Source of the DNA: Erysipelotrichaceae bacterium
Lineage (GTDB): Bacteria; Bacillota_I; Bacilli_A; RFN20; CAG-826
Length of the DNA: 64,000 nt
NCBI GenBank assembly: GCA_015059105.1
Contig: SVBB01000003.1
Span: 1-64,000 of the forward strand
Direction of reading: 5' to 3'
Both the position numbers and the translations under genes were made by a program. A model generated the notes under the pieces. The model was not told the DNA's origin, did not search any database, and worked only from the letters and a program-made list of their open reading frames with translations. This document shows, in pieces, positions 2,442-37,019 of the stretch; within the stretch, counting starts at the first letter, position 1; every line of letters starts with the position of its first letter.

Positions 2442-2542
2442 ACATCAATCCATTACTGTTATATTGAAGCCAGTGGCACTTTCTAGGGTATGGAGGTCGT
2501 TCAAATAGGTATGCGCATACACGCGTATATCAAGACCTTTTA
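2442..2542 (+). ncRNA. Structured leader element E1 (candidate LoaP-responsive RNA)
   Basis: The element begins with ACATCAATC (2442-2450), then GCCAGTGGCAC (2469-2479). After 28 nt comes a 24-nt hairpin (2508-2531) with arms GGTATGCGC and GCGTATATC, then AAGACCTTTT. GGAGGTC upstream can pair with GACCTTT downstream to close an outer stem. Two further copies occur (2626-2700 and 36395-36475) with covarying base pairs in the hairpin. E1 starts about 107 nt after the predicted transcription start and is followed by an intrinsic terminator at 2593-2615. Confidence 0.62.
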
Positions 2543-2592
2543 TTCTATTTCGATGCCGTTTGTTAACACTTTTTTAACATACTGGATTATAT

Positions 2593-2615
2593 GATTAACT
2601 TGTTAATCTGTTTTT
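2593..2615 (+). terminator. Intrinsic terminator in the leader of the first operon
   Basis: GATTAAC (2593-2599) and GTTAATC (2602-2608) are exact reverse complements separated by TT (a CTTG tetraloop if the last pair opens), followed by TGTTTTT. It lies between RNA elements E1 and E2, about 175 nt ahead of the first gene. Expression of the operon therefore needs readthrough, as expected for control by processive antitermination. Confidence 0.6.
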
Positions 2616-2625
2616 AAGTTATGAA

Positions 2626-2700
2626 GCCAGTGGCACATAGTGAGAGAATAGATGTTTATTTTTGCTGATATGCGTGTACACACGTATATCAAGACCTTTC
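2626..2700 (+). ncRNA. Structured leader element E2 (second tandem copy)
   Basis: GCCAGTGGCAC (2626-2636) is followed after 30 nt by a 24-nt hairpin (2667-2690) with 10 paired positions: arms GATATGCGTG and CACGTATATC around a TACA loop, then AAGACCTTT. Relative to E1 the ninth pair changes from C-G to T-A and the second from G-T to A-T, so pairing is preserved. GAGAG upstream can pair with CTCTC downstream. Confidence 0.62.
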
Positions 2701-2710
2701 ACACTCTCGT

Positions 2711-2735
2711 AAGCGAATATAATGTTTGCTTCTTT
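2711..2735 (+). terminator. Weak terminator-like hairpin before the first gene
   Basis: AAGCGAA (2711-2717) pairs with TTTGCTT (2725-2731) including one G-T pair, followed by CTTTATATA. The U-tract is short, so termination would be weak. It may act as a second checkpoint after E2. Confidence 0.3.
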
Positions 2736-2788: not shown

Positions 2789-3523
2789 ATGGTTCAAAAT
2801 ACAAGCCCAATTCAACAGGTTCAGCAACAACCAGAAGAAGGATTAACTTTTAGGAAGTTGCTCTCTATTATTAGAAGACATTGGATTGCAATTGTCGCCT
2901 TCCTTGTCGTTGGCACGGCTGGAGGATTTATCTGGTCAAGACTAGAAAGACCAGCATATACCAGCACAGGGACAATGCTTGTCTCTTATGATGGCAATAC
3001 TAGTGTGAGTACTGAATATACATTCTCCAACTATATATCCGAAACCTACGTTAAAGTCATTAAAGAAGATAAAGTCATGGATAAGGTTGCTGAGAAAACA
3101 GGTATTAAATCAAGCATATTGAAGAGCAACACCTCTGTTAATGCTAAATCGTTAATGATAGAAGTTACTTATACTGACACTGATAAGGCTAAAGCAAAAG
3201 AGATTTGTCAAACAATTATTGAAACAACCCAAGAAGTCGCTAATACAGTTGATGAAGCTGATAAGCCAGTTTATCACCTTCTTTACGACAACTTGAAAGT
3301 GTTCTCTTCTGCTAGTAATGGTAGAGCAGTATCTCACACGACTAGAGATATCGCGATTGGTATCGGTGCTGGTGCTGCAGTGGCGTTCCTCTATGTTGTA
3401 GTAAGAGAATTGTTAGATAACAAATTTAGATCCAAAGATGATATTGAAAGATTACTTAATCTTCCAGTATTAGCGGGTATCCCTGAATATCATTTTGAAG
3501 ATGAAGAGAAAGGTGGTAAATAA
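2789..3523 (+). CDS. Wzz/CapA-type chain-length regulator (YveK family)
   Basis: A 244-aa membrane protein that, with the next gene's kinase, sets polymer length and couples polymerisation to export. It has a cytosolic N-terminus, a first membrane helix near residues 31-49, an outside Wzz domain with the usual P-x-Y-T-S-T start near 56, a second helix near 188-205 and a short cytosolic tail. The tail activates the BY-kinase in Bacillota. A strong AAGGAGG lies 10 nt upstream of the ATG. It is the first gene of the operon, 2 nt from the kinase gene, and lies behind the two RNA elements. The second locus has no copy, so this one may serve both. Confidence 0.9.
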   Translation: MVQNTSPIQQVQQQPEEGLTFRKLLSIIRRHWIAIVAFLVVGTAGGFIWSRLERPAYTSTGTMLVSYDGNTSVSTEYTFSNYISETYVKVIKEDKVMDKVAEKTGIKSSILKSNTSVNAKSLMIEVTYTDTDKAKAKEICQTIIETTQEVANTVDEADKPVYHLLYDNLKVFSSASNGRAVSHTTRDIAIGIGAGAAVAFLYVVVRELLDNKFRSKDDIERLLNLPVLAGIPEYHFEDEEKGGK

Positions 3524-3525
3524 TA

Positions 3526-4293
3526 ATGAGAAAAAAAGTACAACATACAACAGTTAATCCAACATATAGAGTGATTACTGTAGAAGAACCTCACTCTTTA
3601 GCGGCAGAATCCTATAGACGTATTAAAACATCTTTAGAATTTTCTAACCTTGATAAACAACCTCAAGTCATTCAAGTTTGCTCAGCCATGCAAGGCGAAG
3701 GTAAATCTGTTACTGTTTTAAATCTTGCTGCGACATATGCTGAAGATGGGAAAAAAGTAATAGTTGTAGATTTGGACTTCAGAAGACCAAAATTACATCG
3801 TTCATTCAAAGTGGAAAATAAAAACGGAATCACCGATGTATTAAAAGGTGATTTAAAGTTGGAAGTAGCGATTAAACATGGTGAGAACGGTATTGACTGT
3901 TTAAATCGTGGTAGCAGTGTCCCATACCCAACAGCAGTACTTGGTAGTGAAGCAATTGCAAAAGTATTCGCTGAACTCAGAAACAAATATGAATATATCA
4001 TCGTTGACTGCCCACCTATCTTAGCGGTCTCTGACGCGACAATCATCGGTAGATTATGCGATGGTTGTTTGTTTGTTGTTAGCCAATCTAAGACAGAGAA
4101 GAATGCGGCGAAAGAATCAGTGAGAATCCTTAGAGATAATAACGTCAACATCTTTGGAGTGGTATTTGATGGAATCACTGCTAGAAATAGTAACTACTAC
4201 AATAATAGATACAAATATTATTATCAAAACTACTACGGTAAAGACAGTAATGTTAATCCCGGTAAACCAGCAAAATTAGAGGACGACAAATAG
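3526..4293 (+). CDS. CapB/CpsD-type tyrosine kinase (BY-kinase)
   Basis: A cytosolic autokinase of 255 aa that phosphorylates tyrosines and drives capsule assembly through cycles of phosphorylation. Visible are a Walker A motif AMQGEGKS (about 54-61), Walker A' VIVVDLDFRRPK (about 78-89), Walker B IIVDCPP (about 158-164) and a C-terminal tyrosine cluster (YYNNRYKYYYQNYY, about 214-227) that is the usual autophosphorylation tail. It partners the membrane activator encoded just upstream and is opposed by the phosphatase downstream, whose GTG start overlaps this gene's TAG stop. Length and order are those of classic Bacillota cps loci. Confidence 0.93.
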   Translation: MRKKVQHTTVNPTYRVITVEEPHSLAAESYRRIKTSLEFSNLDKQPQVIQVCSAMQGEGKSVTVLNLAATYAEDGKKVIVVDLDFRRPKLHRSFKVENKNGITDVLKGDLKLEVAIKHGENGIDCLNRGSSVPYPTAVLGSEAIAKVFAELRNKYEYIIVDCPPILAVSDATIIGRLCDGCLFVVSQSKTEKNAAKESVRILRDNNVNIFGVVFDGITARNSNYYNNRYKYYYQNYYGKDSNVNPGKPAKLEDDK

Positions 4294-4961
4294 TGATTGA
4301 TATCCACACCCATATCATTCCATGTGTTGATGATGGTTCCCCATCTTTGGAAGAATCCATCAAGATGATTAAACACGAAATTGATATCGGTGTAGATACA
4401 ATAATATGTACCCCACATCATATATATGGTCGATATATGAAAAGTGTGGAGGAAATAAAAGAACAATTTGAACTTCTAAAAGGTGAAGTAGAAAAAGAAA
4501 AACTACCTATAAAGTTGTTGTTAGGTCAAGAGATATGTTATTCACATAGAGAAGACCAAATAACAATGTTAAAAGAAGGTAAATTATTAACATTAGGTGA
4601 TAGTAACAAGATATTATTAGAATTCTCATTTACCAGAGAACCAGAAGATACTTTAGAAGTGATATATAATTTCTCTATCAATGGTTATAAAGTTATTATC
4701 GCCCATGTAGAGAGATATGAATGGATGACATATGATAAAGTGCTATCCCTTAGAAACGAAGGAGCATTGATACAAATCAATTCCAATTCATATCTCGGAT
4801 TAACAACCTGGAAAGAGAAAAGATTTACTAGAAAACTAATCAAGAATGGTCATGTTGATTATGTTGCAAGTGATACACATTCATTTAGGCCATCAACATT
4901 AGATAAAGCATATAGCAAGATAAATAAACAAGAATTATTTATGATGGATATAACCAAATAA
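4293..4961 (+). CDS. CpsB/CapC-type PHP tyrosine-protein phosphatase
   Basis: A manganese-dependent phosphatase of 222 aa that dephosphorylates the BY-kinase. The N-terminus MIDIHTHIIPCVDDG carries the HxH metal motif. Further PHP metal ligands are seen in CTPHH (about 35-39), GQEICY, IAHVERY and SDTHS. Translation starts at a GTG overlapping the kinase stop (TAGTG), which indicates translational coupling. About 50 nt separate it from the sugar transferase, and that gap holds a GC-rich hairpin with a poly-G arm. Confidence 0.92.
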   Translation: MIDIHTHIIPCVDDGSPSLEESIKMIKHEIDIGVDTIICTPHHIYGRYMKSVEEIKEQFELLKGEVEKEKLPIKLLLGQEICYSHREDQITMLKEGKLLTLGDSNKILLEFSFTREPEDTLEVIYNFSINGYKVIIAHVERYEWMTYDKVLSLRNEGALIQINSNSYLGLTTWKEKRFTRKLIKNGHVDYVASDTHSFRPSTLDKAYSKINKQELFMMDITK

Positions 4962-4976
4962 CAACAGATAGAAGGG

Positions 4977-5002
4977 CCCTCTCCGAAAAACATCGGGGGG
5001 GG
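4977..5002 (+). promoter_or_regulatory. GC-rich hairpin with G8 tract overlapping the ribosome binding site
   Basis: CCCTCTCCG (4977-4985) can pair with CGGGGGGGG (4994-5002) across an AAAAACAT loop, giving 9 bp with two G-T pairs. The G8 run ends 8 nt before the ATG at 5011 and is the only Shine-Dalgarno-like sequence there. The stem would mask the ribosome binding site, and a change in G-run length would alter both the stem and the spacing. Such GC-rich sequence is unusual for this DNA. Confidence 0.55.
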
Positions 5003-5010
5003 TTATTATT

Positions 5011-5643
5011 ATGGACAACAATAATCAAACAACATACCAATTCACAACTAGTCAAAAAATATATCTTCCTTTCAAGAGATTGATTGGAATATTTGGCTCT
5101 GTTGTTGGTATTGTTGTATGTTTTGTTCTCCTTTGGTGGTGGGTAATACCAGTGAACGCAATAGTTACTAAAGGACATCCTTTTTTTGTGCATAAAAGGC
5201 TTGGGAAAGACAAGAAAGTGTTTGGACTTATTAAATTTAGGTCAATGAAACTAGATGCAAATCCAAATAGAGCCCCATCTTCAATGAATGCTGAAGAGCA
5301 AAAATCGATGGAAACTGGATTTGGTAAATTTCTTAGAAAAACATCAATTGATGAAACCCCTCAATTATTAAATATTTTTGTAGGACAAATGGCGTTCATT
5401 GGTCCAAGACCGGGAGCGGCTACTAATGAAGAAGGTTTGATAGCTGAAAGAGACAGTTTTTTTCCATGCGCTTATGAAGTGAAGCCCGGAATTAGTGGAT
5501 TGGCGCAGGTGAAAATGAAAAGAGGCCATAACCCAAAGTTAAAAGCAAGCTATGATAGCGAATACATTAAAACTATTTCGTTGTTAAATGATATCAAATT
5601 ATTTTTTACTACATTATTTAAAATGTTTGTAGGAGCTAGATAA
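5011..5643 (+). CDS. Initiating sugar-phosphate transferase (bacterial sugar transferase family)
   Basis: Transfers the first sugar phosphate from a UDP-sugar to undecaprenyl phosphate at the inner membrane face. This is the short PglC/EpsL-like form (210 aa). One membrane (re-entrant) helix lies near residues 25-50, then VHKRLGKDKKVFGLIKFRSM, the catalytic KTSIDETPQLLN block, IGPRPG and KPGISGLAQV. All are family hallmarks. Translation may be modulated by the poly-G hairpin just upstream. It begins the oligosaccharide-building part of the first operon. A second transferase of this family is encoded at 38356, so two different repeat units are likely. Confidence 0.92.
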   Translation: MDNNNQTTYQFTTSQKIYLPFKRLIGIFGSVVGIVVCFVLLWWWVIPVNAIVTKGHPFFVHKRLGKDKKVFGLIKFRSMKLDANPNRAPSSMNAEEQKSMETGFGKFLRKTSIDETPQLLNIFVGQMAFIGPRPGAATNEEGLIAERDSFFPCAYEVKPGISGLAQVKMKRGHNPKLKASYDSEYIKTISLLNDIKLFFTTLFKMFVGAR

Positions 5644-5854
5644 AATGTTTGCTTTGTGAAAACTATTGTTAAGATAAATAGCAAGACGAAAGATACATAA
5701 ATGGCGAGATTAATAATTGTTTTCACGTATTTTTCAAAGTATTTTATAAACAATTAATTGCGGTTGATATTTTACGGTTATTTGGCATTTTTATCATGTT
5801 ATCATTTTAATTAACAAACATATATATGCCCGCCCTTGAGTAATTTTTTACTAT

Positions 5855-7011
5855 ATGAAATCAAATATTATTTATTTTTTAAAGCACAACTCCATTGCAC
5901 AATTTTTGTATAAGATTATCTTTGGTTTTTTATTTAGGCTTATTGGGCTTTTTGTAAAAACTGACGATAATTTAGTTTTGTTTTTATCTATGGGTGGCTT
6001 AAGGTTTAATGATAGCCCTAAGTTTATTTATGAGAGATTGGTTAGTGATAGTAATATAAACAATTAAAGTGCGTTTGGGCTTTTGAAAATCCAAAATTAT
6101 ACCCTAATTTAACAAGTGTTAAGATTGATACACTTAAATTTTTTATATATGCGCTTAAAGCAAAGTATTGGATTGCAAGTACACATTTAGAAAGAGGCTT
6201 GCGTTTTAAAAAGAAACAGACAATTTATTTATACACTTGCCACGGAACAGCGATTAAATTATGTGGTAATAGTTGTCCTGGAAGAAAAGACTTTGATTAT
6301 TCTAATGTTGACTTTATTTCTGTTGCTAGCGACTATGATAAAAAAGTCCTGCTTACCTCATTTAAAGCAAAATCTACAAGTTTTATAGAAACAGGAAGGC
6401 CTTGTAATGATCCTTTGTGGATAGCAGGAAATGATGAAACTGTTTCGTGTAGAAAAAAACTTAATCTTCCTACTAATAAATCAATTATTCTATATGCTCC
6501 AACATGGAGAGATAGTACTAATAAAGGGTCTTCTTATGACATTAACCCTCCTATTAATTTTGAAAAATGGGAAAAAGAATTAGGGGATAAATACATCATT
6601 CTTTTCAGAGCTCATCAAATTACGAACAAACTTTTAGGGGTTCGGTTTAACGACTTTGTACGCGATTTCTCTCAATATGATGAGGTTAATGATTTGTTTA
6701 TTGCGTCAGACATACTTATTTCAGATTATTCAGCCGTATTAACTGATTTTGCTATATTGGAGAGGCCTATTTTTTGTTTTGCATATGATTATGATGAGTA
6801 CTTAACTAAAAGAGGGACCTACTTTGATTTAAATGATAAAATGCCGAACCCAATTTGTAAAACAGAAGATGAGTTAATTGAAAGAATAAAGAATCTTGAT
6901 TACAGCCAAGAAATCCAAAATACTAAAAGATTTAAAGCTGAATTCGATCAGTTTGGTGGAAAAGCAACAGATTTATGTATTAATTACTTATTTAGCAGCA
7001 ACAAACGATGA
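5855..7011 (+). pseudogene. TagF/TagB-like CDP-glycerol glycerophosphotransferase, frameshifted
   Basis: Two reading frames together cover one protein of about 385 aa of the CDP-glycerol:poly(glycerophosphate) transferase family, which moves glycerol or ribitol phosphate from a CDP donor. The first frame (5855-6067) gives the N-terminus and stops at TAA. Restoring a single T near 6055 joins it to the frame starting VWAFENP at about 6076, which runs to 7011 with no further break. The second part has family motifs: YLYTCHGTAIK, YAPTWRDS, LFRAHQ and the LISDYSAVLTDFA block. The break is either a recent mutation or a sequence error, since everything else is intact. A paralogue is encoded at 47666-48883. 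The 211-bp gap upstream (5644-5854) shows no feature. Confidence 0.75.
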
Positions 7012-7039
7012 GTTTTTTCTTACTTAATTTTTTTGATAA

Positions 7040-8200
7040 ATGAAATTTTTATTTGTACTGAATATTGATCTATCTATTAACGGGCCATCTGTTCATTTAA
7101 TGAACGATATCATTTTAGCTGGTGCTAAACAGCATTGTTCAATTGATGTTCTATGCTTTGGGAAAGGGTCTGTATCATCACCATATGTAAAATATTTTTC
7201 TTTGCAAAAAAAGCCTTGTAAAGAGTCTTTTTTGTCAAGATATGTTTTGTTAGTTAAAAGCGCTAAACGTTTTTATAAGCATGTCAAAAACGGGACGTAT
7301 GATGCTATTTTTCTTCAGTCTTCTCCTGCAAGCTTTTGGTTTACACGATTATTTTCTAAATTTGGATGCCCTATTATATATAATGCTCAGGACTTGTTTC
7401 CTCATAATTTGTTCTTTTCAAAACAAATGCCTGGTGGCAGGCTTTTATTTCTTCTTTTTAACTTCTTGGAGAAGCAGTCATATAGAAAAATGTCAAAAAT
7501 CATTACTATTTCCGACGATATGAAAAATACAATTGTTCGTTATTTATGCCCTAAAGAATCAAAAATATCCGTTGTTTATAACTGGAGTTACTCTGATGAT
7601 GCAATTGTTTTTCGGCAGAGCGATCATAGATTATCTGACAATATATTAAACCCAAGTAAATATAATGTTGTGTACGCTGGAAATATTGGCAAAATGCAAA
7701 ACATTAATTTAATTATCTCGGTAGCAAAGCTTCTTAAAGATATTGATTTCGTTCATTTTACAATAATTGGTGAAGGTGTTGAAAAAGATAAACTTATGCA
7801 TCTTTCCGACGGGCTGAACAACATATCTTTTTTTGAATTTCAATCGGTGGCTACTTCTGAAATTGTTTATGCACTCGCTGACGTTAACATAATTCCACTT
7901 GTCCCAAAAGGAATATACACTGCCCTACCTAGTAAATCAGCAACATGTCTTAGATCAGGTCAGATTTGCTTGTTTTGTATTGATACTGAGTCTATATTCG
8001 CAAAAAAAATATCAAATGAAGATGGAGTTTTTGTCTATAATCCAACAGATATTATTGGTATTGCTAATTTAATAAAACTTTTATCTAGCAGAAACCATTC
8101 TTCGTTTTCAAGACTAAATTTTATCAAAACAAATATGTCATCAGAGTTTAATCCAAAAAGGTATATCGATATTATTAAAGGAGCATGCGATATTTCGTAA
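7040..8200 (+). CDS. Glycosyltransferase family 4 protein
   Basis: Predicted GT-B fold retaining glycosyltransferase of 386 aa that adds a sugar to the lipid-linked repeat at the inner membrane face. The N-terminal half includes YNAQDLFPHN, similar to WbuB-type enzymes. The C-terminal GT4 half has VYAGNIGKMQNINLII and a nucleotide-sugar site around IIGEGVEKDKL and ADVNIIPLVPKGIYTALPSKSATCL, although the usual E-x7-E is weakly kept. It follows the broken TagF-like gene by 28 nt and overlaps the next gene by 16 nt. Donor and acceptor are not predictable. Confidence 0.82.
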   Translation: MKFLFVLNIDLSINGPSVHLMNDIILAGAKQHCSIDVLCFGKGSVSSPYVKYFSLQKKPCKESFLSRYVLLVKSAKRFYKHVKNGTYDAIFLQSSPASFWFTRLFSKFGCPIIYNAQDLFPHNLFFSKQMPGGRLLFLLFNFLEKQSYRKMSKIITISDDMKNTIVRYLCPKESKISVVYNWSYSDDAIVFRQSDHRLSDNILNPSKYNVVYAGNIGKMQNINLIISVAKLLKDIDFVHFTIIGEGVEKDKLMHLSDGLNNISFFEFQSVATSEIVYALADVNIIPLVPKGIYTALPSKSATCLRSGQICLFCIDTESIFAKKISNEDGVFVYNPTDIIGIANLIKLLSSRNHSSFSRLNFIKTNMSSEFNPKRYIDIIKGACDIS

Positions 8201-9432
8201 TTTTTATGACCGACTTAAGCAATTGTTCGTTTTTATTTTTGACAGGGTTATTTCCAAAAGAGACAGAAAAAAGCATTATTAGCAACTCTATAGGATTGCC
8301 ACAATATGCTGCTAATAACTTACAATGGAACCTTGTTTATGGGTTTGATGATAATAATGTTTCGTTAACTATTTTTAATTTGATTTATATTGGCTCCTAT
8401 CCTCGAAGATATAAAAAAATATTTGTTAAAAATTACTCATTTTCTCACAATGGTAAATCGTGTGATAGAAATATAGGCTTTTGTAACTTGCCAATCATAA
8501 AGCGTTTTTCTCGTTTTCATAATGCAAAAAAGATTATCAGAAGGTGGATTGCAAAAAACAAGGATAAAAAAAAGGTAATATTTGCTTACGCTATGACAGA
8601 TTCCTTTGATAAATCTCTCGTATATGCAAAAAAGATAGATAGTAACATTAAAACGTGCTTAATCGTTCCTGATTTACCACAATATATGAATACAAGCGCG
8701 AAGAAGAGTATCATTTATTCAATCTTAAAATCCATAGATGTTAAAAAACAATTCAACCTTTCCAAAAAGATTGATTCTTTTGTTTTATTGACCAAGGAAA
8801 TGTCTGCTTTTTTTCCTAACAAGCCTTTTCTTGTTATTGAAGGAATTGCAACAAAAGGAAGAAAGCTAGAACCAATAGTCGACAATTGGAAAGGCAAGAC
8901 GAAAATTCTTTACGCTGGCGGATTGAAATGCAAATATGGAATAATGCACCTTGTAAATGCTTTTAAACTACTTGACAGCAACTGCTATATGCTTATTATT
9001 TGTGGAGATGGTGAATGTAAAGACGAAATAATTTGCGAAAGCAAATGTAATAAGAGCATTGTATTTATGGGCTCTCTCTCTCATGAAAATGTTTTGCAAC
9101 TGGAAAAAATATCTGATGTTTTAGTAAACCCAAGAATGGAGCAAAACGAAGTATTTACAAAATATAGTTTTCCATCCAAGATATTGGAATATCTTTCTAA
9201 CAAAAAACCTGTTGTTTCTTACAAATTGCTAGGTATTCCCGACGAGTACGATAGCGTTCTTTTTTACCCGAAAGATTATAGCGAATTTGAGTTATCTCTA
9301 ACAATTAAAGAAGCTGCATCTATGAGTGATGATGAAAAGAAGAGATATGAGGAAAAGGTTGCAAAGTTTGTTGAGAGTAAATCGCCTAAATATCAAGTTA
9401 GGAAAATTATTGATTTTGTTCTTAGTGAATAA
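8185..9432 (+). CDS. Glycosyltransferase, GT4-like
   Basis: A 415-aa (from ATG 8185) or about 408-aa (from ATG 8206) protein. The C-terminal half has the GT-B pattern ILYAGGLKCKYGIMHLVNAF, ICGDGECKDEI, SDVLVNPRMEQNEVFTKYSFPSKILEYLS and KPVVSY, as in glycosyltransferase group 1. The N-terminal half is divergent. AAAGGAG lies only 1 nt before the first ATG and far from the second, so the start is uncertain. It overlaps the previous gene by 16 nt, consistent with coupled translation. Confidence 0.75.
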   Translation: MRYFVIFMTDLSNCSFLFLTGLFPKETEKSIISNSIGLPQYAANNLQWNLVYGFDDNNVSLTIFNLIYIGSYPRRYKKIFVKNYSFSHNGKSCDRNIGFCNLPIIKRFSRFHNAKKIIRRWIAKNKDKKKVIFAYAMTDSFDKSLVYAKKIDSNIKTCLIVPDLPQYMNTSAKKSIIYSILKSIDVKKQFNLSKKIDSFVLLTKEMSAFFPNKPFLVIEGIATKGRKLEPIVDNWKGKTKILYAGGLKCKYGIMHLVNAFKLLDSNCYMLIICGDGECKDEIICESKCNKSIVFMGSLSHENVLQLEKISDVLVNPRMEQNEVFTKYSFPSKILEYLSNKKPVVSYKLLGIPDEYDSVLFYPKDYSEFELSLTIKEAASMSDDEKKRYEEKVAKFVESKSPKYQVRKIIDFVLSE

Positions 9433-9470
9433 TCTCTGTATTAACATAAAGGCGCAAAAATAAGTAAAAT

Positions 9471-10754
9471 ATGCATAAAGTTATCATTAATTATCGATTT
9501 TTAGTGTTCACCATGGTAATTCTTTTTACTTGGTTGGGACTGGTTAGAAACATTATTTCATTTCGTTTGGGTGGTGTTGTTTTTGAATTGATTTCGATTG
9601 TATTAATGATAATCACATTTTTTTTGAGAGATAAAAGCGAACGTTCGTTCGCGAAAGAAAAGAATGTATTAATTCTAGTTTTAGTATTTTCAATCTTATA
9701 TTTCAGTTTTTCTTTTATATACAAAGCTGGCCACTTTACTGAAGTTGTTGGAATTACTATTCCTGTTTATGCATATAATACATTGCTTAACGTTCCATTG
9801 TGGGTTGCACATTTTGTGTGTTTTTTTAAAACCAGTAATAAAGAAAAACGGATTATTTTTAAACTTTTTAACCTAATTATTGTTTACGATATCATTATTA
9901 CACTAATTGCTTTAACTTTTGACGTTGGGTTTGTTAAAGCTAGGTCGGCAGGAATGATTATTGATGGTTCTTATCAATATGCTTATTTAGGGGCAATGGG
10001 TTACGAACTTACATATAGTGTTCTACTTTTAGTCCCAATTTATTTTTATTTAGGCATTAAGAAAAAACAATGGCTTTGCTTATCTATTTCGCTCCTTTCA
10101 TTAATATTTGTTGTAATGTCTTCTTTCTTTATTGCTATAGTTGCTTTGATGCTATTGTGTATTATTTCTTGTTTTTTTATCGCTAAAAGCAATTTCGTAA
10201 AAATAAGTTTAATAGTTGGACTTGTTACTTTTTTAATTATTGCGATTAATACTGGTCTTTTGGGGCACTTTTTTATTTGGCTAACATCTATTACAGATAA
10301 TTATGAGTTAGGTCAACGCTTTCTTCAAGTTGGTAACTTATTGTTGTTTGGAGATTCTTCTGGAAGAGCATTGTTACGATTGGACTTATACAACAATTCT
10401 TTAATTGCGATATTGTCCCATCCGTTGTTTGGTGTTTTACTTTTTAATCCATTATATCCTATATCTGACCACTCGACTTTGCTGGATGTTTGGGCTGGAT
10501 TTGGCATAATAACTTTTGTCTTTTTTATTTTGATACCAATCGAGTTATTTATTTTGTTCTATAAAACACAAAAAAGCACTATTAGTAATCTGATGATTGC
10601 TTCTCTGCTAATATTTGTTTTTGTTGCGACATTTAATCAAATATTAATATCTCCTCATATTTTACTTATAGTTACATTTATTTTTCCAATTATAAACACG
10701 ATTTTTAACGAAGATAATTGCACTTCCATTCAGTATGAAAATTATTGCTATTAA
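9471..10754 (+). CDS. Wzy-like polysaccharide polymerase
   Basis: Highly hydrophobic protein of 427 aa with about 10-12 membrane segments, a large external loop (about 265-325) and a C-terminal stretch with HPLFGVLLFNPLYPISDHSTLLDVWAGFGI, the kind of N-x-xD-H/S-x-xL pattern seen in O-antigen polymerases. It would link repeat units on the outer face of the membrane. It overlaps the next gene by 20 nt and lies two genes before the flippase gene, as expected in a Wzx/Wzy locus. Sequence conservation in this family is poor, so the call rests on topology and context. Confidence 0.78.
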   Translation: MHKVIINYRFLVFTMVILFTWLGLVRNIISFRLGGVVFELISIVLMIITFFLRDKSERSFAKEKNVLILVLVFSILYFSFSFIYKAGHFTEVVGITIPVYAYNTLLNVPLWVAHFVCFFKTSNKEKRIIFKLFNLIIVYDIIITLIALTFDVGFVKARSAGMIIDGSYQYAYLGAMGYELTYSVLLLVPIYFYLGIKKKQWLCLSISLLSLIFVVMSSFFIAIVALMLLCIISCFFIAKSNFVKISLIVGLVTFLIIAINTGLLGHFFIWLTSITDNYELGQRFLQVGNLLLFGDSSGRALLRLDLYNNSLIAILSHPLFGVLLFNPLYPISDHSTLLDVWAGFGIITFVFFILIPIELFILFYKTQKSTISNLMIASLLIFVFVATFNQILISPHILLIVTFIFPIINTIFNEDNCTSIQYENYCY

Positions 10755-11949
10755 TCTTGGATGTTTTGGTAGTACTGGAACTATTATGTCGCAAATAGCA
10801 CACCTTTCTAGAGAGTGTGGAATAGACTATTATTGTGTTTATCCTGATTCATCTTTAAATAAAAATCGTTTTGAGAGCGATTTTATTACACAAAAGAAAA
10901 GGTGGTGGCTCATTGAAACAAAAATATCGCATTTATTGGGTTTAAATGATTTGCTCTCTTTTTTGCCAACAAAAAGGGTTATTCGTTTTCTTAAAAAAGA
11001 AAAGCCTGATATAGTGCATCTCCACAACATTCATAATTGTTTTTTAAACTATCCTCTTCTATTCTCCTTTTTATCTAAAAAGGACATACATGTTGTTTGG
11101 ACATTGCACGATTGTTGGAGTTTTACAGGGAGATGCCCATATTTTAGTATAACAAAATGTGAACAGTGGAAATCTAATTGTTCTAAATGTATTTATAATA
11201 AAAGATATTATCCCAAATCTTTTATTCGTACGGAAAAGTTACAACTTAAACTTAAAAAGCATTATTTTTCATTGCTTAATCATATGACGATTGTGACACC
11301 TTCTAAATGGCTTTCCGACTTAGTTAAACAATCTTTTTTATGCAAATATCCAACAAGGGTTATTTATAATGGGATTGATTTTTCTGTTTTTAAACCACAA
11401 CAATCTGATTGTAAACGAAAATATAAAATTAACAATAATAGGTTCGTTTTATTGGGAGTTGCTTTTGATTGGGGATACCGTAAAGGCTTAGATGTTTTTG
11501 TTAAATTGTCTAAAGTTTTAGATGACAAATTTTATCAAATAGTAATAGTAGGTACAAATTCTACCATTGATAAAAGTCTTCCGAGTAATATTGTTTCTAT
11601 TCATCAAACTGAAAGCAAGATAGAGCTGGCGCAATTATATTCAACAGCTGATCTTTTTATAAATCCAACAAGGGAAGATAATTTACCTACTGTAAATATT
11701 GAGAGTTTGGCATGTGGTACACCGGTATTATCGTTTAGAACTGGTGGTAGCCCAGAAATAATTGATAAAACATGTGGAAGCATAGTTGACTGCGATGATT
11801 TTGAGTCGTTGAAAAATGAAATTATAAGAATTTGTAAAACTAAGCCATATTCTAAAGATAATTGCTTAAAACGAGCAAAAGTGTTTGATATGAATGTAAG
11901 GTTCCAAGATTATATTTGTTTGTACGAGGAATTAAATAAAAAACAGTGA
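10735..11949 (+). CDS. Glycosyltransferase family 4 protein
   Basis: A GT-B glycosyltransferase of 404 aa. The start MKIIAINLGCFGSTGTIMSQIA has the family's early glycine-rich turn. An acceptor-side cysteine-rich insert, FTGRCPYF...CEQWKSNCSKC (about 136-158), is typical of the WcaL/WcaC-like branch. The donor half has GVAFDWGYRKGLDVFVKL, ADLFINPTREDNLPTVNIESLACGTPVL with the E-x7-E catalytic pattern, and TGGSPEII. It overlaps genes on both sides (20 nt and 4 nt), so it is translated within the polymerase-flippase block. Donor sugar unknown. Confidence 0.85.
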   Translation: MKIIAINLGCFGSTGTIMSQIAHLSRECGIDYYCVYPDSSLNKNRFESDFITQKKRWWLIETKISHLLGLNDLLSFLPTKRVIRFLKKEKPDIVHLHNIHNCFLNYPLLFSFLSKKDIHVVWTLHDCWSFTGRCPYFSITKCEQWKSNCSKCIYNKRYYPKSFIRTEKLQLKLKKHYFSLLNHMTIVTPSKWLSDLVKQSFLCKYPTRVIYNGIDFSVFKPQQSDCKRKYKINNNRFVLLGVAFDWGYRKGLDVFVKLSKVLDDKFYQIVIVGTNSTIDKSLPSNIVSIHQTESKIELAQLYSTADLFINPTREDNLPTVNIESLACGTPVLSFRTGGSPEIIDKTCGSIVDCDDFESLKNEIIRICKTKPYSKDNCLKRAKVFDMNVRFQDYICLYEELNKKQ

Positions 11950-13244
11950 AACTTGGTATTTTCAAAAATAAAATTGCCATAAACGCATCTTGGATTATTA
12001 CTGTAAGAATTGTTCAAGCAATTTTAGCTTTAATAATAAACATGCTGACAGCTAGATTCCTTGGTCCATCAAACTATGGTTTAATTAATTATGCTGCATC
12101 GATTGTTGCATTTGCAACTCCAATAATGAGTTTGGGCTTTGCTAATGTGTTGGTTCAAGAATACGTTAACCATCCAGAAGAAGAGGGTAAGATTCTTGGC
12201 ACTTCTATACTGTTAAGTTTTTTTTCGTCTCTAGTATGCATAGGTGGAGTTTTTACATTTACACTTATCGCCGATGCGGGACAAGAAATAACTAATATAG
12301 TTGTATTATTGTATAGCTTGATTTTGATTTTTCAAGCTTTTGAATTAATTCAATATTGGTATCAAGCAAAGCTTTTATCAAAATATATGGCAATAGTTTC
12401 TCTTGTTGCTTATATCTTGGTTTCTGTTTACAAAGTTGTACTATTGATTCTTAAGGCCGATATTTATTTGTTTGCAATAGCGAACTCTATAGATTACCTA
12501 CTAATAGCGTTATTATTATTCGTTGTTTATAAGAAGTTGGGTGGGCAAAGAATCTCTTTTTCTGGGGAAATAGGAAAAAGAATGTTTGCTAAATCTAGAC
12601 ATTATATTGTGTCGAGTTTAATGGTTACGATATTTGCACAAACAGATAAAATAATGTTGAAACAAATGATTGATGAATCTGCTGTCGGATATTATTCTGC
12701 AGCCGTTTCGTGTGCTGGTATGACCTCATTCGTTTTTGTTGCAATTATTGATTCGTTTAGACCTGTTATTTTTGAACATAAAAAGAACAAAGATGAAACA
12801 GGATACGAACTAAATATAGAACGGTTATACAGTATAGTTATTTATCTTGCACTTCTACAAAGTTTAGCAATGACTATTTTGGCACCATTTATTATTCAAA
12901 TATTATATGGAAACGATTACCAACCATCTGTTTTGGCTTTAAGGATAATTGTATGGTATACGACTTTTGCATACATGGGTTCTATTAGAAATGTATGGAT
13001 CCTTGGCGAGGGAAAACAAAAATATCTTTGGCTACTAAATCTTGGCGGAGCAATTACAAATGTGGTTTTGAATTTTATTTTGATTCCTGTTTGGGGGATA
13101 TATGGGGCTGCTGCAGCATCGCTTATTACACAAGCATTTACGAATATAGCAATGAATGTAATCGTCTGGCCCTTAAGGCACAATAATGTGTTAATAATTA
13201 AAAGTTTAAATCCAAGGTTAATAATAAATCTTTTTAAGAAATAA
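11946..13244 (+). CDS. Wzx-type oligosaccharide flippase
   Basis: Polysaccharide biosynthesis (MATE/MOP fold) membrane protein of 432 aa, about 12-14 helices, which flips the lipid-linked repeat unit across the membrane. The N-terminus reads NASWIITVRIVQAILALIINMLTARFLGPSNYGLINYA, the classic Wzx start. A conserved segment QTDKIMLKQMIDESAVGYYSAA lies near 235. The GTG start overlaps the previous gene's TGA (GTGA). It is one of two flippases in the window, one per polysaccharide locus. Confidence 0.9.
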   Translation: MKLGIFKNKIAINASWIITVRIVQAILALIINMLTARFLGPSNYGLINYAASIVAFATPIMSLGFANVLVQEYVNHPEEEGKILGTSILLSFFSSLVCIGGVFTFTLIADAGQEITNIVVLLYSLILIFQAFELIQYWYQAKLLSKYMAIVSLVAYILVSVYKVVLLILKADIYLFAIANSIDYLLIALLLFVVYKKLGGQRISFSGEIGKRMFAKSRHYIVSSLMVTIFAQTDKIMLKQMIDESAVGYYSAAVSCAGMTSFVFVAIIDSFRPVIFEHKKNKDETGYELNIERLYSIVIYLALLQSLAMTILAPFIIQILYGNDYQPSVLALRIIVWYTTFAYMGSIRNVWILGEGKQKYLWLLNLGGAITNVVLNFILIPVWGIYGAAAASLITQAFTNIAMNVIVWPLRHNNVLIIKSLNPRLIINLFKK

Positions 13245-13249
13245 TTGAT

Positions 13250-14059
13250 ATGAAAGAAATAACTGATGTAAATGTAATTAAAGAACTTGAACTAGGTGTT
13301 TTGATAGAAATACACAATTTTTGTGTTAAACACAATTTACAGTATTTTCTTGCTTGTGGGACTTTAATTGGTGCTATACGTCACAATGGTTTCATCCCTT
13401 GGGATGATGACATAGATATTATGATGAAACGAAAAGATTATGATTTTTTTATCCATCATTTTGGAAATGATAGATATGGTGTTAATAGTTGCACAACAAA
13501 TAAGAACTATTACTGGTCATATGCTAAAGCTTATGATAAACATACACTTAAAATTGAGAATAAAAAATCGTACAAACTTAACCAAGGCGTGGATGTTGAT
13601 ATATTTGTTTTGAATGATTGTTGTGACATAGACTTTGCGAAGAGAAAAGAGAAAAAAAGAAGAATACTACAAGTGTTATGGTCGTTTAGCATTAGAGATT
13701 GGAAAAAGGTTACTTCTTTTAAATGCTTTATTGCAAATCTTGTTTCTGTATTTCTCAGACCATTATCAAATCATCTTGCCAAAAAAATGAATAGACTAAC
13801 TCTAATGGATAAGAACCAATCTGACGTATGCAACCATTACCAAATTTTTTCGTTGGTTGGCAATAGGATTCATATAATGGAAAAAGAGTGGTTTTCAAAA
13901 CAAATACCTCATAAGTTTGAGAAATATTATTTTTTTATTCCGGTCGGCTATGACCAAGTGCTAAAAGAAGAGTTTGGTGATTATATGAAGTTACCACCAA
14001 TTGAACAGCGGGTTTCGCACCATAGTAATAGAGTCTTTTATATTGAGGATGAAAAATGA
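13250..14059 (+). CDS. LicD-family phosphotransferase
   Basis: LicD proteins transfer phosphocholine, or a related phospho-alcohol, from its CDP form to a sugar. This 269-aa protein has the family signature ACGTLIGAIRHNGFIPWDDDIDI (about 36-58), whose aspartates bind metal in this nucleotidyltransferase fold, and a second block ANQGVDVDIFVL-like (KLNQGVDVDIFVLND, about 107-121). It starts 6 nt after the flippase gene and overlaps the pyruvyl transferase by 4 nt. The CDP donor could come from the cytidylyltransferase-containing protein at 17506 or the LicC-like proteins at 50308 and 52887. Which alcohol is used cannot be told. Confidence 0.9.
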   Translation: MKEITDVNVIKELELGVLIEIHNFCVKHNLQYFLACGTLIGAIRHNGFIPWDDDIDIMMKRKDYDFFIHHFGNDRYGVNSCTTNKNYYWSYAKAYDKHTLKIENKKSYKLNQGVDVDIFVLNDCCDIDFAKRKEKKRRILQVLWSFSIRDWKKVTSFKCFIANLVSVFLRPLSNHLAKKMNRLTLMDKNQSDVCNHYQIFSLVGNRIHIMEKEWFSKQIPHKFEKYYFFIPVGYDQVLKEEFGDYMKLPPIEQRVSHHSNRVFYIEDEK

Positions 14060-15153
14060 AAAGAATAGGGATAGTTTCGTATAACATATATGCAAATTTT
14101 ACAAATTATGGATCCGCATTACAGTCTTGGGCGCTCAACCAATCTATCTCAAAGTTGGGTTATTTTCCTGTTTTAATTGATTACTGTCCTGATATTTTAT
14201 TGAACATAAATCCATTGGATCCATTCAATAATTCTTGGGACAAAGATGAAGAAACAAAGAAAATGATTGATTTATCAATGCCGTCAATAATAGAGAATTA
14301 TAATAAATTTGAGGCATTCTATTCAAATCAGTTCAACCGCTCAAAATCATATAACAGAATTAATTTCAACGATTCTACTAATGAAGTGGATTCGTATGTT
14401 TGTGGCTCGGATACCATATTTTCTCCGGACGAATTTGGATTAGATGATGGATATCTAGCTAATTATTCTCATATGGTTAACAATTCCATTTCTTATGCCG
14501 CAAGTTTTGGCGATCCACATTTTTCGGATGTCCAATTTATAGAATTGAATAAAAAGTTAAAAAATTTCAAAGCGTTGGGGATTCGTGAAAACCTAATGAT
14601 TGATTATGTAAAATCCCAAGTCAACGTTCCAGTTCATAGAGTCATTGATCCAACATTGCTATTAAAGCCGGAAGAGTATGATCGAATTACTTGCCCTAAT
14701 AGATTAATAGAACAGGAATATGTCCTATATTACTCGAGGCGATATAATCCTATCATGGAAAAGTATGTGGAGGATTTAGCAAAAGAGAAAAATCTAAAAA
14801 TAGTTGAAATTAGTTTAAGAGCACAAAACGTAAACAAAGGTCATATTATGTTTTATCACGCTGGAGTAGAAGAATTCTTGTCGTTAGTAAAACACGCAAG
14901 CTTTGTTGTTACCAATTCCTTTCATGGGATGATATTTAGTGTTCAGTTTAAAAAAGAATTCGTTGTTTTTTCTAGAGCCCTTTGTGATACTAAAATTGTT
15001 GAACTATTAAAAATCTTCGGCATTGAAGACCGATTACTTTTAAACGGGAGCGAGAGTTATAAACCCATTAATTGGGAACGCGTTTCTTCAAACATAGAAA
15101 AAGAAAGGCAACAATCTATAGATTTTCTTTCTAAATCTCTAAAATTACTTTAA
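14056..15153 (+). CDS. Polysaccharide pyruvyl transferase family protein
   Basis: A 365-aa member of the CsaB/WcaK-type family that adds a ketal-linked pyruvate, or catalyses related transfers, on surface sugars. Seen are the N-terminal GIVSYNIYANFTNYGSALQSWAL, the CGSDTIFSPDEFG segment (about 115), the ISYAASFG block and the C-terminal VVTNSFHGMIFSVQFKKEF block with the conserved S-F-H-G. It overlaps the LicD gene (ATGA) and is followed by a 4Fe-4S/FrhB-like protein. The two families commonly occur as neighbours in polysaccharide loci. Confidence 0.87.
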   Translation: MKRIGIVSYNIYANFTNYGSALQSWALNQSISKLGYFPVLIDYCPDILLNINPLDPFNNSWDKDEETKKMIDLSMPSIIENYNKFEAFYSNQFNRSKSYNRINFNDSTNEVDSYVCGSDTIFSPDEFGLDDGYLANYSHMVNNSISYAASFGDPHFSDVQFIELNKKLKNFKALGIRENLMIDYVKSQVNVPVHRVIDPTLLLKPEEYDRITCPNRLIEQEYVLYYSRRYNPIMEKYVEDLAKEKNLKIVEISLRAQNVNKGHIMFYHAGVEEFLSLVKHASFVVTNSFHGMIFSVQFKKEFVVFSRALCDTKIVELLKIFGIEDRLLLNGSESYKPINWERVSSNIEKERQQSIDFLSKSLKLL

Positions 15154-15168
15154 AACAGTAGGTATAAA

Positions 15169-16443
15169 ATGTTTTTAGACGGCAGTAAAAAGAATGAGTG
15201 TTATGGGTGCGAGTCCTGCGTTCAAGTTTGTCCTAAAAACGCAATTGTTATGTTTGAAGATGATGAGGGCTTCCGCTACCCTCAAATAGATGAAAATGCT
15301 TGTATTAATTGTGGATTATGCAGAAAGAGTTGTCCTTATGAAGTAGAAATAACCAAATATCGAAGTAATAAGTATGTTTTCGGTGGATACATTCTTGATG
15401 AAGCGACAAAGTTTCGAAGCACCAGCGGCGGGGCATTTAGTGCTATTGCAAAAGCCTTTTGTGATGAAAACTATGTTATTTTTGGTGCTGAAGCGAATGG
15501 TATAGATGTTTTTCACTCTTATATTGAAGATGTAAATGAATTAGATAAATTTGGGAAGTCAAAGTATAGCCAAAGCAAAATTGGCAACTCTTATAAATTG
15601 GCAAAAAGGTTTTTGCTTGATGGAAAAAAAGTTTTGTTTTCTGGCACACCATGCCAAATTGCCGGGCTAAAAGCATTTTTAGGCAAAACCCCTCAAGATA
15701 ATTTGTTGACAGTTGAAGTTGTTTGCGAGGGTGTTCCAAGCCCACTTTATATCAGGAAAATGCAACACAAACTTGAGGAAAAATATAATTCACAAATTGA
15801 TACAATCGACTATAGATGCAAAGGAAAATCGATTTTTGGTCATTGCAAATGGGATTTTGAACAGCAGGAGATCACTTTGAAGAAAAATCGGGGGGGGGTA
15901 CTAAAATGGGACTTCCAAGTAATGGAGATTACGATGGGTAATAAAAAAGTTATCAGAATCGATAGATGGTTCAACCCGTTTTGGTCAATTTGGCTTCGTC
16001 ATCTAATGAGTAGACCTTCTTGTTATCAGTGCAAGTTTGCAGAACAAGGTAGAATAGCGGATATTACTCTAGGTGATTTGTGGGGTGTCCATATTTATTG
16101 CCCTGAGTTGTATGGCAAAAATGGAGGAGCATCATTAATTGTCTGCAATACAGATAAAGGAAAAAAGGTTTTTGAAGAAGCTAAAAAAAATATGTATGGG
16201 CATGAGCTTGATTTTGAAGAGGCATTAAAATATCAAAGTCCTTTGAGAAAGCATATTGATGATAATCCATTGAGAGAGAGTTTTATGTACGACTTGAAAT
16301 CAGATACCTCTTACGATGAAATAAATAAAAAATGGGCTAAAAAGCCATCATTTAAATTATTGTGGCAAAAATATGTATGGGGTAACAGACAGAAAGTTGC
16401 TTTGTGGAATTTTTTCCACAGGAAGGAGAAAACCAGTGATTAA
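15169..16443 (+). CDS. 4Fe-4S/FrhB-like (F420 hydrogenase beta subunit family) protein of the polysaccharide cluster
   Basis: A 424-aa protein with two N-terminal [4Fe-4S] motifs ([16 protein letters not shown] and [13 protein letters not shown], about 9-50). The FrhB N- and C-terminal domains follow: [19 protein letters not shown] and the cysteine pair region [25 protein letters not shown]. Homologues accompany pyruvyl transferases in surface-sugar loci; their reaction is not settled. Unusual features are a run of nine G (15890-15898) in the coding sequence and a 57-bp imperfect duplication around it (WDFEQQEIT / WDFQVMEIT). Loss or gain of one G would cut the protein near residue 245. It overlaps the next gene by 8 nt. 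Confidence 0.85.
15847..15939 (+). repeat. Imperfect 57-bp tandem duplication within the FrhB-like gene
   Basis: AAATGGGA-TT---A---A--GGAGAT-AC--TG recurs at 15847 and 15904, an offset of 57 bp or 19 codons, encoding [12 protein letters not shown] and [12 protein letters not shown]. The unit spans the poly-G tract, which is present in the first spacer only. In-frame duplication has lengthened the protein by about 19 residues. Confidence 0.55.
15890..15898 (+). repeat. Poly-G tract (G9) inside a coding sequence
   Basis: Nine consecutive G within codons for R-G-G-V of the FrhB-like protein. In such AT-rich DNA a G9 run is rare by chance and is prone to slipped-strand errors. Only lengths of 9 plus or minus multiples of three keep the frame. 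Confidence 0.85.
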
Positions 16444-17509
16444 TTTTACAGTTGGACCAGTTCAATCTCCTGAAGAAGTGAGAAAAATTGGTGCTGAGAA
16501 TGTACCTTATTTTAGGACTGAAGAATTTTCAGAAGTCATGAAAGAAAATGAAAGATTAATGCTTGAATTTTCTGGCGCTCCAGAAAAGTCGAGAGCTATT
16601 TTTATGACATGTTCAAGTACTGGTTCTATGGAAGCTATAGTTATGAATTGTCTTAACAAAAACGACAAGGTTCTTGTTGTTAACGGAGGTAGTTTTGGTG
16701 AAAGATTTGTTCAACTTTGTGAAATTCACTCTTTGAATTATGAAGAAATCAAACTTAATCACGGTACCGCTTTGACCAGAAACCGTTTATTTGAATACGA
16801 CAACAAAGGTTTTACAGCACTGTTAGTAAATGTTGACGAAACCTCAACTGGTGTTTTATATGATGTAAATTTGTTAGGTGAATTTTGCAAGAAGAATAAT
16901 ATGTTCTTTGTTTGTGATTGCGTCTCATCTTTTTTAGCAGACCCATTTAGTATGGAGAAATGTGGCGCGAATGTAATGATTACTGGATCACAAAAAGTTA
17001 TGGCATGTCCTCCTGGTGTTTCAATAATTGTTCTTGATCCAACAGCATTAAAGCGTGTTGAAGAAAATAATGTAATGTCTATGTACTTTAACTTAAAATC
17101 AGCCTTAAAAGATGGAGAAAGAGGTCAAACACCATTTACTCCCGCTGTTGGAATTCTTTTACAAATTAATGCAAGATTAAAGTCTATAAAAGCTAGCGGA
17201 GGAGCAAAATCAGAAATTGATAAAGTTGCTCAACAAGCCGAAGATTTTAGAAGAAAAATAAAGGAGTTGCCATTTGAGCTTGTTTCAGAATCTCCAGCTA
17301 ACGGAGTTACTCCTATTCACCCACTAAATGCCAACGCATACGAGGTTTTCTTATGTTTAAAAAATGAGTATAACATTTGGGTATGTCCTAATGGTGGCGA
17401 TATGCGCAACACAATATTCCGTGTTGGCCATATGGGAGACCTTTCTTTTAAGGACAACGATGCATTAATTGAAGCATTAAGGGATATGCAAAAGAGAGGT
17501 CTAATATGA
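16436..17509 (+). CDS. Class V PLP-dependent aminotransferase
   Basis: A 357-aa aminotransferase of the class V fold, which includes phosphoserine and 2-aminoethylphosphonate transaminases. Key segments are [13 protein letters not shown] at the start, [13 protein letters not shown] (PLP phosphate contact), [26 protein letters not shown] and the lysine block [12 protein letters not shown], where K is the Schiff-base residue. The GTG start at 16436 is chosen because AAGGAG sits 8 nt upstream and the conserved N-terminus begins there; an upstream in-frame ATG would lie inside the preceding gene. It is directly followed (4-nt overlap) by a cytidylyltransferase fusion, so it probably supplies an amino-phospho-alcohol for CDP activation. 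The true substrate is unknown. Confidence 0.85.
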
Positions 17510-18762
17510 TTAAAGTTATTACTTATGGAACATATGACCTTCTTCACTATGGTCATATACGTTTATTGGAAAGAGCAAAGGCTCTTGGTGATTATTTAAT
17601 TGTCGGAATTACCTCTGATGATTTTGATAAAAGTAGAGGAAAAATTAATAATCAGCAATCGTTAATGGAAAGAATTGCAGCTGTAAGAGAAACCGGGATT
17701 GCTGATGAGATAATTGTAGAAGAGTATGAAGGCCAAAAAATTGATGATATCAAAAGATATGGAGTAGATATTTTTACAGTTGGGTCGGATTGGGTTGGAA
17801 AATTTGATTATCTTAATGAATATTGTAAAGTTGTTTATTTAGAAAGAACTCAAGGCATTTCAAGTTCTGAAATTAGAGCAAAACAACGAACATTAAAAAT
17901 ATTTTCTGATAATAAACGAGGCGTTGAAAAGAAATTCGTAATGGAGGCAGATTTTGTTAATGGAATTGAAATTTCTAGTGATGAATACGATGCCAAATAT
18001 ATAGTCTCGCTTCCTAAATGCCACTACAATGATATAAAGAATGAACTTTCACGTTGTAAAAGCGTTATTTGTGAATCACCAATTACGTGTAGCGCAAACC
18101 AAACGAAAGAGTTGTTTGAATTAGCTAAAAACAACAAGTGCTTTTTGTTTGATGGCCTTAAGACGGCTTATTCAACTGCTTTTTCTAGAATGTTGCTTTT
18201 AGTTAAAAGTGGGGTAATAGGTGATATTGTTTCAGTAGATGCAACATGTACCAGCATGGCAGATTTTAATGAGTCAGATGATATTGGCAATAAGTGGAAC
18301 AGCATTTGTGCATGGGGTCCTATTGCATTATTGCCTGTGTTTAGAATCTTGGGTACAAATTACAAACAAAAAAGAATAACAACAAAGTGGATTGACAAAA
18401 AAGAAAAGTTTGATGCATTCACTAAAATAGATTTTATTTATGATAATGCGGTTGCCTCTATTAAAGTGGCTAAAAAAGCTAAGTCAGAAGGCGAACTTAT
18501 TGTCACCGGCACAAAAGGATATATTGTAGTACCTGCTCCATGGTGGAAAACCGATTATTTTGAGGTAAGATACGAGAATCCTCAAGATAATAAAAGGTAT
18601 TTTTATCAACTAGATGGAGAAGGGATTAGGTATGAGATTGCTGCTTTTGCTAAGTCAATTTCAGCCATGAAAAATTTCTCTAATGTACCTATCGACATTT
18701 CAATAGCAATTAGCAAAATTTTAGAAGACTTTTATAATGGTGACATTGTTGAGATTGGGTAG
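17506..18762 (+). CDS. Fusion of TagD-like cytidylyltransferase and Gfo/Idh/MocA-like oxidoreductase domain
   Basis: A 418-aa two-domain protein. Residues 1-130 are a TagD/cytidylyltransferase domain with [19 protein letters not shown] (HxGH), [16 protein letters not shown] and the ISSSEIRAK (ISTSxIR-like) end. Residues about 140-418 resemble the Gfo/Idh/MocA oxidoreductase fold: [26 protein letters not shown] matches the E-K-P/L segment and a [28 protein letters not shown] segment matches the beta-sheet domain. The classic N-terminal GxGxxG is not seen, so the second half may be incomplete or recruit its partner differently. It overlaps the aminotransferase gene by 4 nt. Together with LicD at 13250 these genes suggest making and transferring a CDP-activated amino-polyol. 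Confidence 0.75.
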
Positions 18763-18801
18763 AAACTAAAAATGTTAATACGTATTTGCTCTTCAAGCAT
18801 T

Positions 18802-18919
18802 GTGAACGTTTGATTCACATAAAGTTAATGTGGACTTTGTAAGGTCCATTGTAACGTTTGAAGTAGGAATAAGAGATTACCAATTTGATATGGCCCTACA
18901 TGGATTGGTGAACGTATGA
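18802..18919. repeat. Three copies of a GTxAACGTWTGA motif in an intergenic spacer
   Basis: GTGAACGTTTGA (18802), GTAACGTTTGA (18851) and GTGAACGTATGA (18908) lie in the 218-bp spacer between the cytidylyltransferase fusion and the FucNAc genes. Small hairpins (GTGAA/TTCAC and GGACTT/AAGGTCC) overlap them. This is the largest gap in the intact part of the first operon, so it may be a regulatory or recombination point. No promoter is clear. Confidence 0.4.
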
Positions 18920-18980
18920 AACAAAACCAAGGATGATTTGAGAAAGAAGTATAAGGATAGAAATAAAGGAGGCATTTATT

Positions 18981-20018: not shown

Positions 20019-20035
20019 CAAGGAGGTGTTTGCTT

Positions 20036-22386: not shown

Positions 22387-22409
22387 TACCCGCCCCTCGA
22401 CCATCGTAA

Positions 22410-22691
22410 CGATTGAACAGCGGGGAAATACAAGAAGAAGCCCCTGCATATGGTGTTCCTGTCCTTGTTATGAGAGATACTACAGAAAGACCAGAAGGTG
22501 TAGAAGCAGGTACTCTTAAATTAGTAGGCACTAATGAAGAAGTTATTTATAGCGAATTTACTAAGCTATTAGATAACAAAGAAGAATATGCAAAGATGGC
22601 TAAAGCTGTTAATCCATATGGTGATGGTTATGCTTGTGAAAGAATAGCAGATATACTTGAAGAAAAAGAATATCAGGAGTGGGTGAATTAA
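22410..22691 (+). pseudogene. C-terminal fragment of a WecB-type UDP-GlcNAc 2-epimerase
   Basis: About 93 codons that start abruptly at SGEIQEEAPAYGVPVLVMRDTTERPEGVEAG, the conserved C-terminal block of UDP-GlcNAc 2-epimerases, and end in a normal stop. The preceding three quarters of the gene are missing. It is joined to the capF stop by a short GC-rich stretch with the small palindrome ATCGT-A-ACGAT (about 22402-22412) inside CCCGC/GCGGG arms. It is more like classical MnaA than the FucNAc epimerase upstream, so it is debris of an older polysaccharide gene set. Confidence 0.85.
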
Positions 22692-37017: not shown

Positions 37018-37019
37018 CA

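Follow-up and report, generated by a model that had tools for sequence, protein, structure and literature searches.

The 64-kb window, meaning the whole stretch of DNA analysed here, is from a rumen bacterium (Erysipelotrichaceae) and holds two long runs of polysaccharide genes, a loaP-like gene and three copies of a leader element, E1, E2 and E3. E1 lies ahead of the first gene run, E2 follows in tandem 158 nt downstream, and E3 is directly upstream of loaP. The main features are given below, with approximate extents for the leader copies; R1 is a covariance model built from only the three window copies, and R2 a second model described further on.

2448..2543, + strand: leader copy E1 (module A, P3 and box B); R1 90.4 bits, R2 28.4 bits (non-seed)
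2606..2702, + strand: leader copy E2; R1 91.5 bits, R2 51.0 bits (R2 seed)
2711..2731, + strand: candidate weak intrinsic terminator between E2 and the first gene (wzz); AAGCGA-N9-TTGCTT CTTTATATA, -6.0 kcal/mol
2789..34870, + strand for all genes: first polysaccharide gene run (Wzz, tyrosine-kinase-like, CpsB, sugar transferase, others)
36374..36473, + strand: leader copy E3; R1 84.1 bits, R2 43.1 bits (non-seed)
36487..37017, + strand: loaP-like gene, 176 aa, a NusG paralogue; 121.3 bits to NF033641 vs 60.9 bits to NusG
37019..37042, + strand: candidate intrinsic terminator between loaP and the next gene; AACAACTT-N8-AAGTTGTT TTTATTT, -5.6 kcal/mol
37079..55484, + strand: second polysaccharide gene run (LegC-type aminotransferase, sugar transferase, others)

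The gene run headed by E1 and E2 extends over ~32 kb and is closed by a strong terminator-like site at 34894, and the second run (18 kb) is closed by a terminator-like site at 55515-55538. The window LoaP falls slightly under the curated NCBIfam cut-off (121.3 vs 125 bits). The candidate terminators at 2711 and 37019, both weak, are among only 17 such sites on the + strand in 64 kb, and further candidates lie inside genes at 46891 and 52370. A consistent terminator directly behind loaP was looked for in relatives and was not found. Two divergent O-antigen ligase-type genes (67-1152 and 34852-36063, both on the - strand), 56% identical, each stand beside one leader, and a unit of ligase, leader and polysaccharide operon seems to have been duplicated within the locus. 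A DNA-deoxyinosine glycosylase gene (1625-2137) just upstream of E1 is apparently unrelated to the operons.

Each part that the original prediction had ascribed to the three copies was recovered. The core GCC(A/C)GTGGCAC occurs at 2469, 2626 and 36395, each on the + strand, with no further copy in 64 kb when one mismatch is allowed (three seen vs 0.39 by chance); it is followed after 28, 30 and 30 nt in E1, E2 and E3, respectively, by G(G/A)TAT...TATATC hairpins of 24, 24 and 25 nt, and then by a box 3' of the hairpin, AAGACCTTT in both E1 and E2 and AAAGAACTTT in E3. The positions first given to the copies were right but incomplete, the P1 stem around the GCC...GGC hairpin having been missed. 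A search of the whole 1.5-Mb genome with R1 returned E1, E2 and E3 and no others, and Rfam covariance models gave no match to the leaders at the gathering score or at E<=1.

Anatomy of the leader

Each copy comprises a structured module A, a hairpin P3 and a box B, with 65-69 nt from module A to P3/box B in the window. The parts are listed with the evidence for each.

2449..2494, + strand: E1 module A; P1 2449-2457 with 2487-2494, P2 2469-2477 (P1 covariation, sequence)
2508..2531, + strand: E1 hairpin P3 (folding vs shuffles, strand-exchange pairing, position before box B)
2534..2543, + strand: E1 box B, GACCTTTTAT (alignment, hairpin-to-box spacing)
2607..2652, + strand: E2 module A; P1 2607-2614 with 2643-2652, P2 2626-2634 (alignment, P1 covariation)
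2667..2690, + strand: E2 hairpin P3 (folding vs shuffles, strand-exchange pairing, position before box B)
2693..2702, + strand: E2 box B, GACCTTTCAC (alignment, hairpin-to-box spacing)
36375..36421, + strand: E3 module A; P1 UCUAC/GUAGA, P2 36395-36403 (alignment, P1 covariation)
36436..36460, + strand: E3 hairpin P3 (folding vs shuffles, strand-exchange pairing)
36464..36473, + strand: E3 box B, GAACTTTTAT (alignment, hairpin-to-box spacing)

Module A is a long covarying stem, P1, carrying a small hairpin, P2, whose top, GAAGC(C)-N3-(G)GCAC, is conserved, and alignment of relatives places the GCC-N3-GGC hairpin at the tip of P1. The constant parts of the leader are this stem-loop top (GAAGC...GCAC), the strand that follows it (AUAGAxGUCAUC) and box B. 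Two compensatory changes had been noticed among the window copies; both are present, but on three sequences they are without significance (114/500 shuffles reach the score), so relatives were needed. With these added, the covariation is strong. P1 strands change together by genome (UCUAUC/GAUAGA, UCUAUA/UAUAGA, UCUAAU/AUUAGA, UCUAC/GUAGA, UCCAU/AUGGA), the UCCAU/AUGGA pairing of E1 being compensatory to the UCUAU/AUAGA of other copies. Across 12 distinct sequences, P1 is paired in 95.8% of cells with four pairs changed on both sides, and its covariation score was reached by 0/500 shuffles; sliding the partner strand reduced pairing to 37-52%.

P3 hairpins of the window fold better than shuffles (z -3.7, -4.8 and -2.6). 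Among relatives, P3 was judged by anchored strands, because MAFFT misaligned its 5' strand, and was paired in 149/160 cells vs a mean of 82 when 3' strands were exchanged between genomes, the former figure being an upper estimate since stems were picked as best hairpins, which inflates pairing. As the 20 hairpins have 17 distinct 5' strands and pairing is nonetheless kept, P3 is conserved as a hairpin and not as a sequence, and the earlier proposal that its 24 nt form a recognition sequence is not supported. On its 3' side P3 abuts box B: measured to the final base of the box, the best hairpins end 8-14 nt upstream, energies at 8-12 nt average -5 to -7 kcal/mol vs -2.5 to -3.2 kcal/mol in shuffles, and the signal is lost by 15 nt. 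We take this arrangement to be the geometry of a hairpin-stabilised pause.

Association with loaP among relatives

The NCBIfam LoaP profile identified LoaP in 21/224 genomes of the family (119-136 bits), all other proteins being NusG-like at <=92 bits. LoaP-bearing relatives are rumen and gut Erysipelotrichaceae/Bacilli MAGs, and in most of those examined the neighbours of loaP are polysaccharide genes (CpsB, Polysacc_synt_2). Module A was found, by pattern or by eye, upstream of 20/21 LoaP genes of the window family, always on the sense strand and ~87-108 nt before the start codon (pattern-scan distances for L018, L019, L024, L138 and L146 left out). The sole LoaP gene without the element, L029 (G227), has another possible hairpin upstream, GGCCACACTAGGGAGACTAGGTGGTC, with AAAGCTAGGCATAC further up.

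Covariance-model searches of related genomes, as proposed in the original prediction, yielded homologues outside the window, almost all adjoining the 5' side of loaP, which supports its reading of the element as a LoaP-associated leader of polysaccharide operons. In 76 related genomes R1 gave one convincing new copy (G016), between cpsB and loaP; in the 20 other LoaP loci it matched the module A place upstream of loaP in 17 and only two other places. The motif G(A/C)AGC-N3-7-GCA(C/T) is present in 17/18 non-redundant LoaP leaders, against a background of 0.019 per 200 nt, and absent from seven NusG control upstream regions (0/7). Over 279 genomes of the order, R2 matched 14/22 LoaP genomes vs 1/257 others; its seeds were taken upstream of loaP, so the positive count is partly circular, although the absence elsewhere is not. 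Among sequences that were not seeds, R2 also recovered L026 at 52 bits, E3 at 43 bits and E1 at 28 bits. E-values of these short-calibrated models are rough.

Several matches were set aside as chance. The R2 match in G008, a LoaP-free genome, lies within a coding frame, and none of the R1 matches in L003, L005 and L006 (21-28 bits) has the full core with LoaP context, that in L003 also falling in a coding frame.

The sequence comparisons support a tie between the element and LoaP in relatives; the link could instead reflect co-inheritance of loaP with its operon. Within the window family, all credible copies other than E1 and E2 lie directly upstream of loaP. That nearly every copy has this position is what would be expected if the leader were an autoregulatory element of loaP only, with E1/E2 an accident of duplication, and the 56% identity of the divergent ligase genes by both leaders makes duplication likely. 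However, E1 and E2 persist as a structured tandem pair ahead of an operon whose first gene is not loaP, and leaders of other families, described below, stand behind loaP or far from it, before polysaccharide genes. We regard autoregulation alone as unlikely.

A parallel leader in other families

LoaP leaders of other families differ in their letters but share the plan of a first hairpin, a variable hairpin and a box. In one set the first hairpin, A', reads AAUCGU(C/U)GC-N3-GYC(G/A)CGUU; its stem has a bulged U and covaries (89.4% paired, six pairs changed on both sides, score reached by 0/500 shuffles). The variable hairpin comes next, with GGCGAAGC(A/G)U after it. R3, a model of A' alone that excludes the box, matched 22/22 strong-LoaP genomes vs 1/21 others in another Bacillota family (f20); leaving out seed genomes, 16/16 were matched (p about 1e-9, a guide only, as the genomes are related). 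The GGCGAAGC box lies 62-83 nt behind 24 R3 copies, the corresponding distance in the window being 65-69 nt.

Not all of these leaders precede loaP. In G550 and G444 the leader lies ~20 nt behind loaP, before a sugar transferase, and in G635, G639, G640 and G630 leader and loaP are on different contigs or hundreds of kb apart, the leader preceding a sugar transferase, ABC transporter, capsular-type ATPase or (G630) transposase, with terminators behind it in three. Clear terminators follow the loaP-free leaders L178 (by eye), L180 and L185. Copies away from loaP suggest that the leader belongs to the operon and not to loaP. In L162 and L160 the LoaP gene is ahead of the leader, which heads only the downstream sugar-transferase operon. 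Behind the loaP-free leader of L180 (L180:4-1143) is a mutator-family transposase, perhaps inserted into the target operon.

Window-type module A occurs together with GGCGAAGC in L091, L099 and, by eye, L136, which links the two leader sets. R3 had no match in the window, and a shared origin of A and A' is not established. The GGCGAAGC box was found upstream of LoaP in 21/78 loci vs 0.6 expected. Its positions, ~28-113 nt upstream of LoaP genes, span Bacillota and Coriobacteriia (loci L078, L080, L086, L089, L091, L093, L099, L113, L124 and L138-L157). An Atopobiaceae LoaP leader (L086:4911-4945) has two such boxes 26 nt apart, recalling tandem E1/E2. The sequence GCGAAGC, contained in the box, is a very stable DNA mini-hairpin.

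A long, structured and conserved 5' leader could also be read by another factor, a riboswitch or other RNA-binding protein controlling capsule operons shared with loaP, and LoaP binding to the leader is itself a prediction. Yet the leader is absent from LoaP-free genomes of the order, one chance match aside, the co-occurrence with LoaP is seen again in a second family, which has A' in place of module A, and there is no matching Rfam family. We consider such a factor quite improbable.

Known systems and a proposed mode of action

Among the closest known systems is the dfn/mln leader hairpin bound by Bacillus velezensis LoaP (PMC12691694; reportedly also the subject of Elghondakly 2021 and 2024). 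As in dfn/mln, the genome encodes LoaP and a long operon has an RNA hairpin in its leader; here the hairpin is conserved, and loaP adjoins a putative target operon. In B. velezensis, LoaP binds a dfn leader hairpin of the UNCG type, which it requires; transcription pauses after the hairpin and before the terminator, and this pause assists LoaP. NusA lengthens the pause, and LoaP opposes NusA (PMC12691694). The same order is present here (module A, P3 with box B, candidate terminators), with the pause predicted. Internal terminators are read through in dfn/mln, and the window gene runs hold candidate internal terminators. Unlike dfn/mln, which are polyketide operons, those here are polysaccharide operons, and unlike the dfn UNCG hairpin, the tops have 3-7-nt loops; UNCG hairpins (stem >=3) occur in 4/20 leaders at scattered, unrelated places, so the loop type is not conserved. 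As dfn was compared with A/A' by description and not by sequence, homology is not established. Together this suggests that the leader is a variant of the known LoaP hairpin kind, distinct in lacking a conserved UNCG loop.

The ops element of RfaH is GGCGGTAGCGTG, with a possible mini-hairpin (PMC5995543). Like ops, the leaders offer a short box in polysaccharide operons and a NusG paralogue as putative factor, but here the box comes with a structured RNA module and with an RNA hairpin that abuts it. The claim that the element is unlike ops holds for the window copies, a scan of 20 leaders for GGCGGTAGCGTG having given no match within 3 mismatches. It does not hold more widely: the GGCGAAGC(A/G)T box of other LoaP leaders resembles ops in sequence and possible mini-hairpin, which offers a lead. 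That resemblance, and a C:G pair that could close the short loop, would suit sites acting as non-template-strand DNA, with RNA folding secondary. Against this, P1 pairs strands separated by ~45 nt, which a transcription bubble of 10-11 nt could not span, and the window boxes have no ops match, making an exclusively DNA-based site very improbable.

Lambda nut sites and rrn boxA-boxB are two-part leader signals for processive antitermination, a likeness of plan with the present leaders, to which they are unrelated in sequence. EAR (epsC RNA) is a cis RNA of Bacillus eps (exopolysaccharide) operons, said to promote readthrough; the leaders here differ from it in having no Rfam match. The literature searched held no account of these leaders, and key LoaP-RNA reports fell outside its scope, so A' may be known to specialists.

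We infer that the element, lying in the 5' leader of polysaccharide operons, is probably a cis site at which LoaP loads for processive antitermination. RNA polymerase would first make module A, a long stem with a small hairpin on top and the conserved internal loop GAA-GC(C) N3 (G)GC-AC, and LoaP or a LoaP complex would bind this module as RNA. A further 65-69 nt on, the polymerase would make P3 and enter box B, a predicted hairpin-stabilised pause that would hold it while LoaP is handed over. LoaP would then ride with the polymerase, suppressing intrinsic terminators behind the leader (2711 after E2, 37019 after loaP) and those inside the 18- and 32-kb gene runs. With E3 directly ahead of it, loaP would reinforce the operon in which it lies, and through E1/E2 a second operon would come under LoaP control in trans.

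More tentatively, and with some doubt, LoaP operons across Bacillota (and, by motif, Coriobacteriia) might share a two-part signal, in which RNA hairpin A/A' is followed ~65-75 nt on by a hairpin-stabilised pause whose non-template DNA box, GGCGAAGC(A/G)T or variants, is an ops-like hairpin read by LoaP, the window family being a diverged form. If true, recruitment of LoaP would combine the dfn and RfaH modes, an RNA signal and an ops-type DNA signal both being used.

LoaP is widespread beside polysaccharide clusters of gut bacteria, and in the literature found only two polyketide leaders are characterised. With its defined modules, fixed spacing and support from covariance, the leader supplies specific targets for assays of binding, pausing and readthrough. 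It also allows LoaP regulons to be predicted from sequence, and makes it possible to test whether recruitment of LoaP is via RNA, via an RfaH-like ops-type box, or via both.
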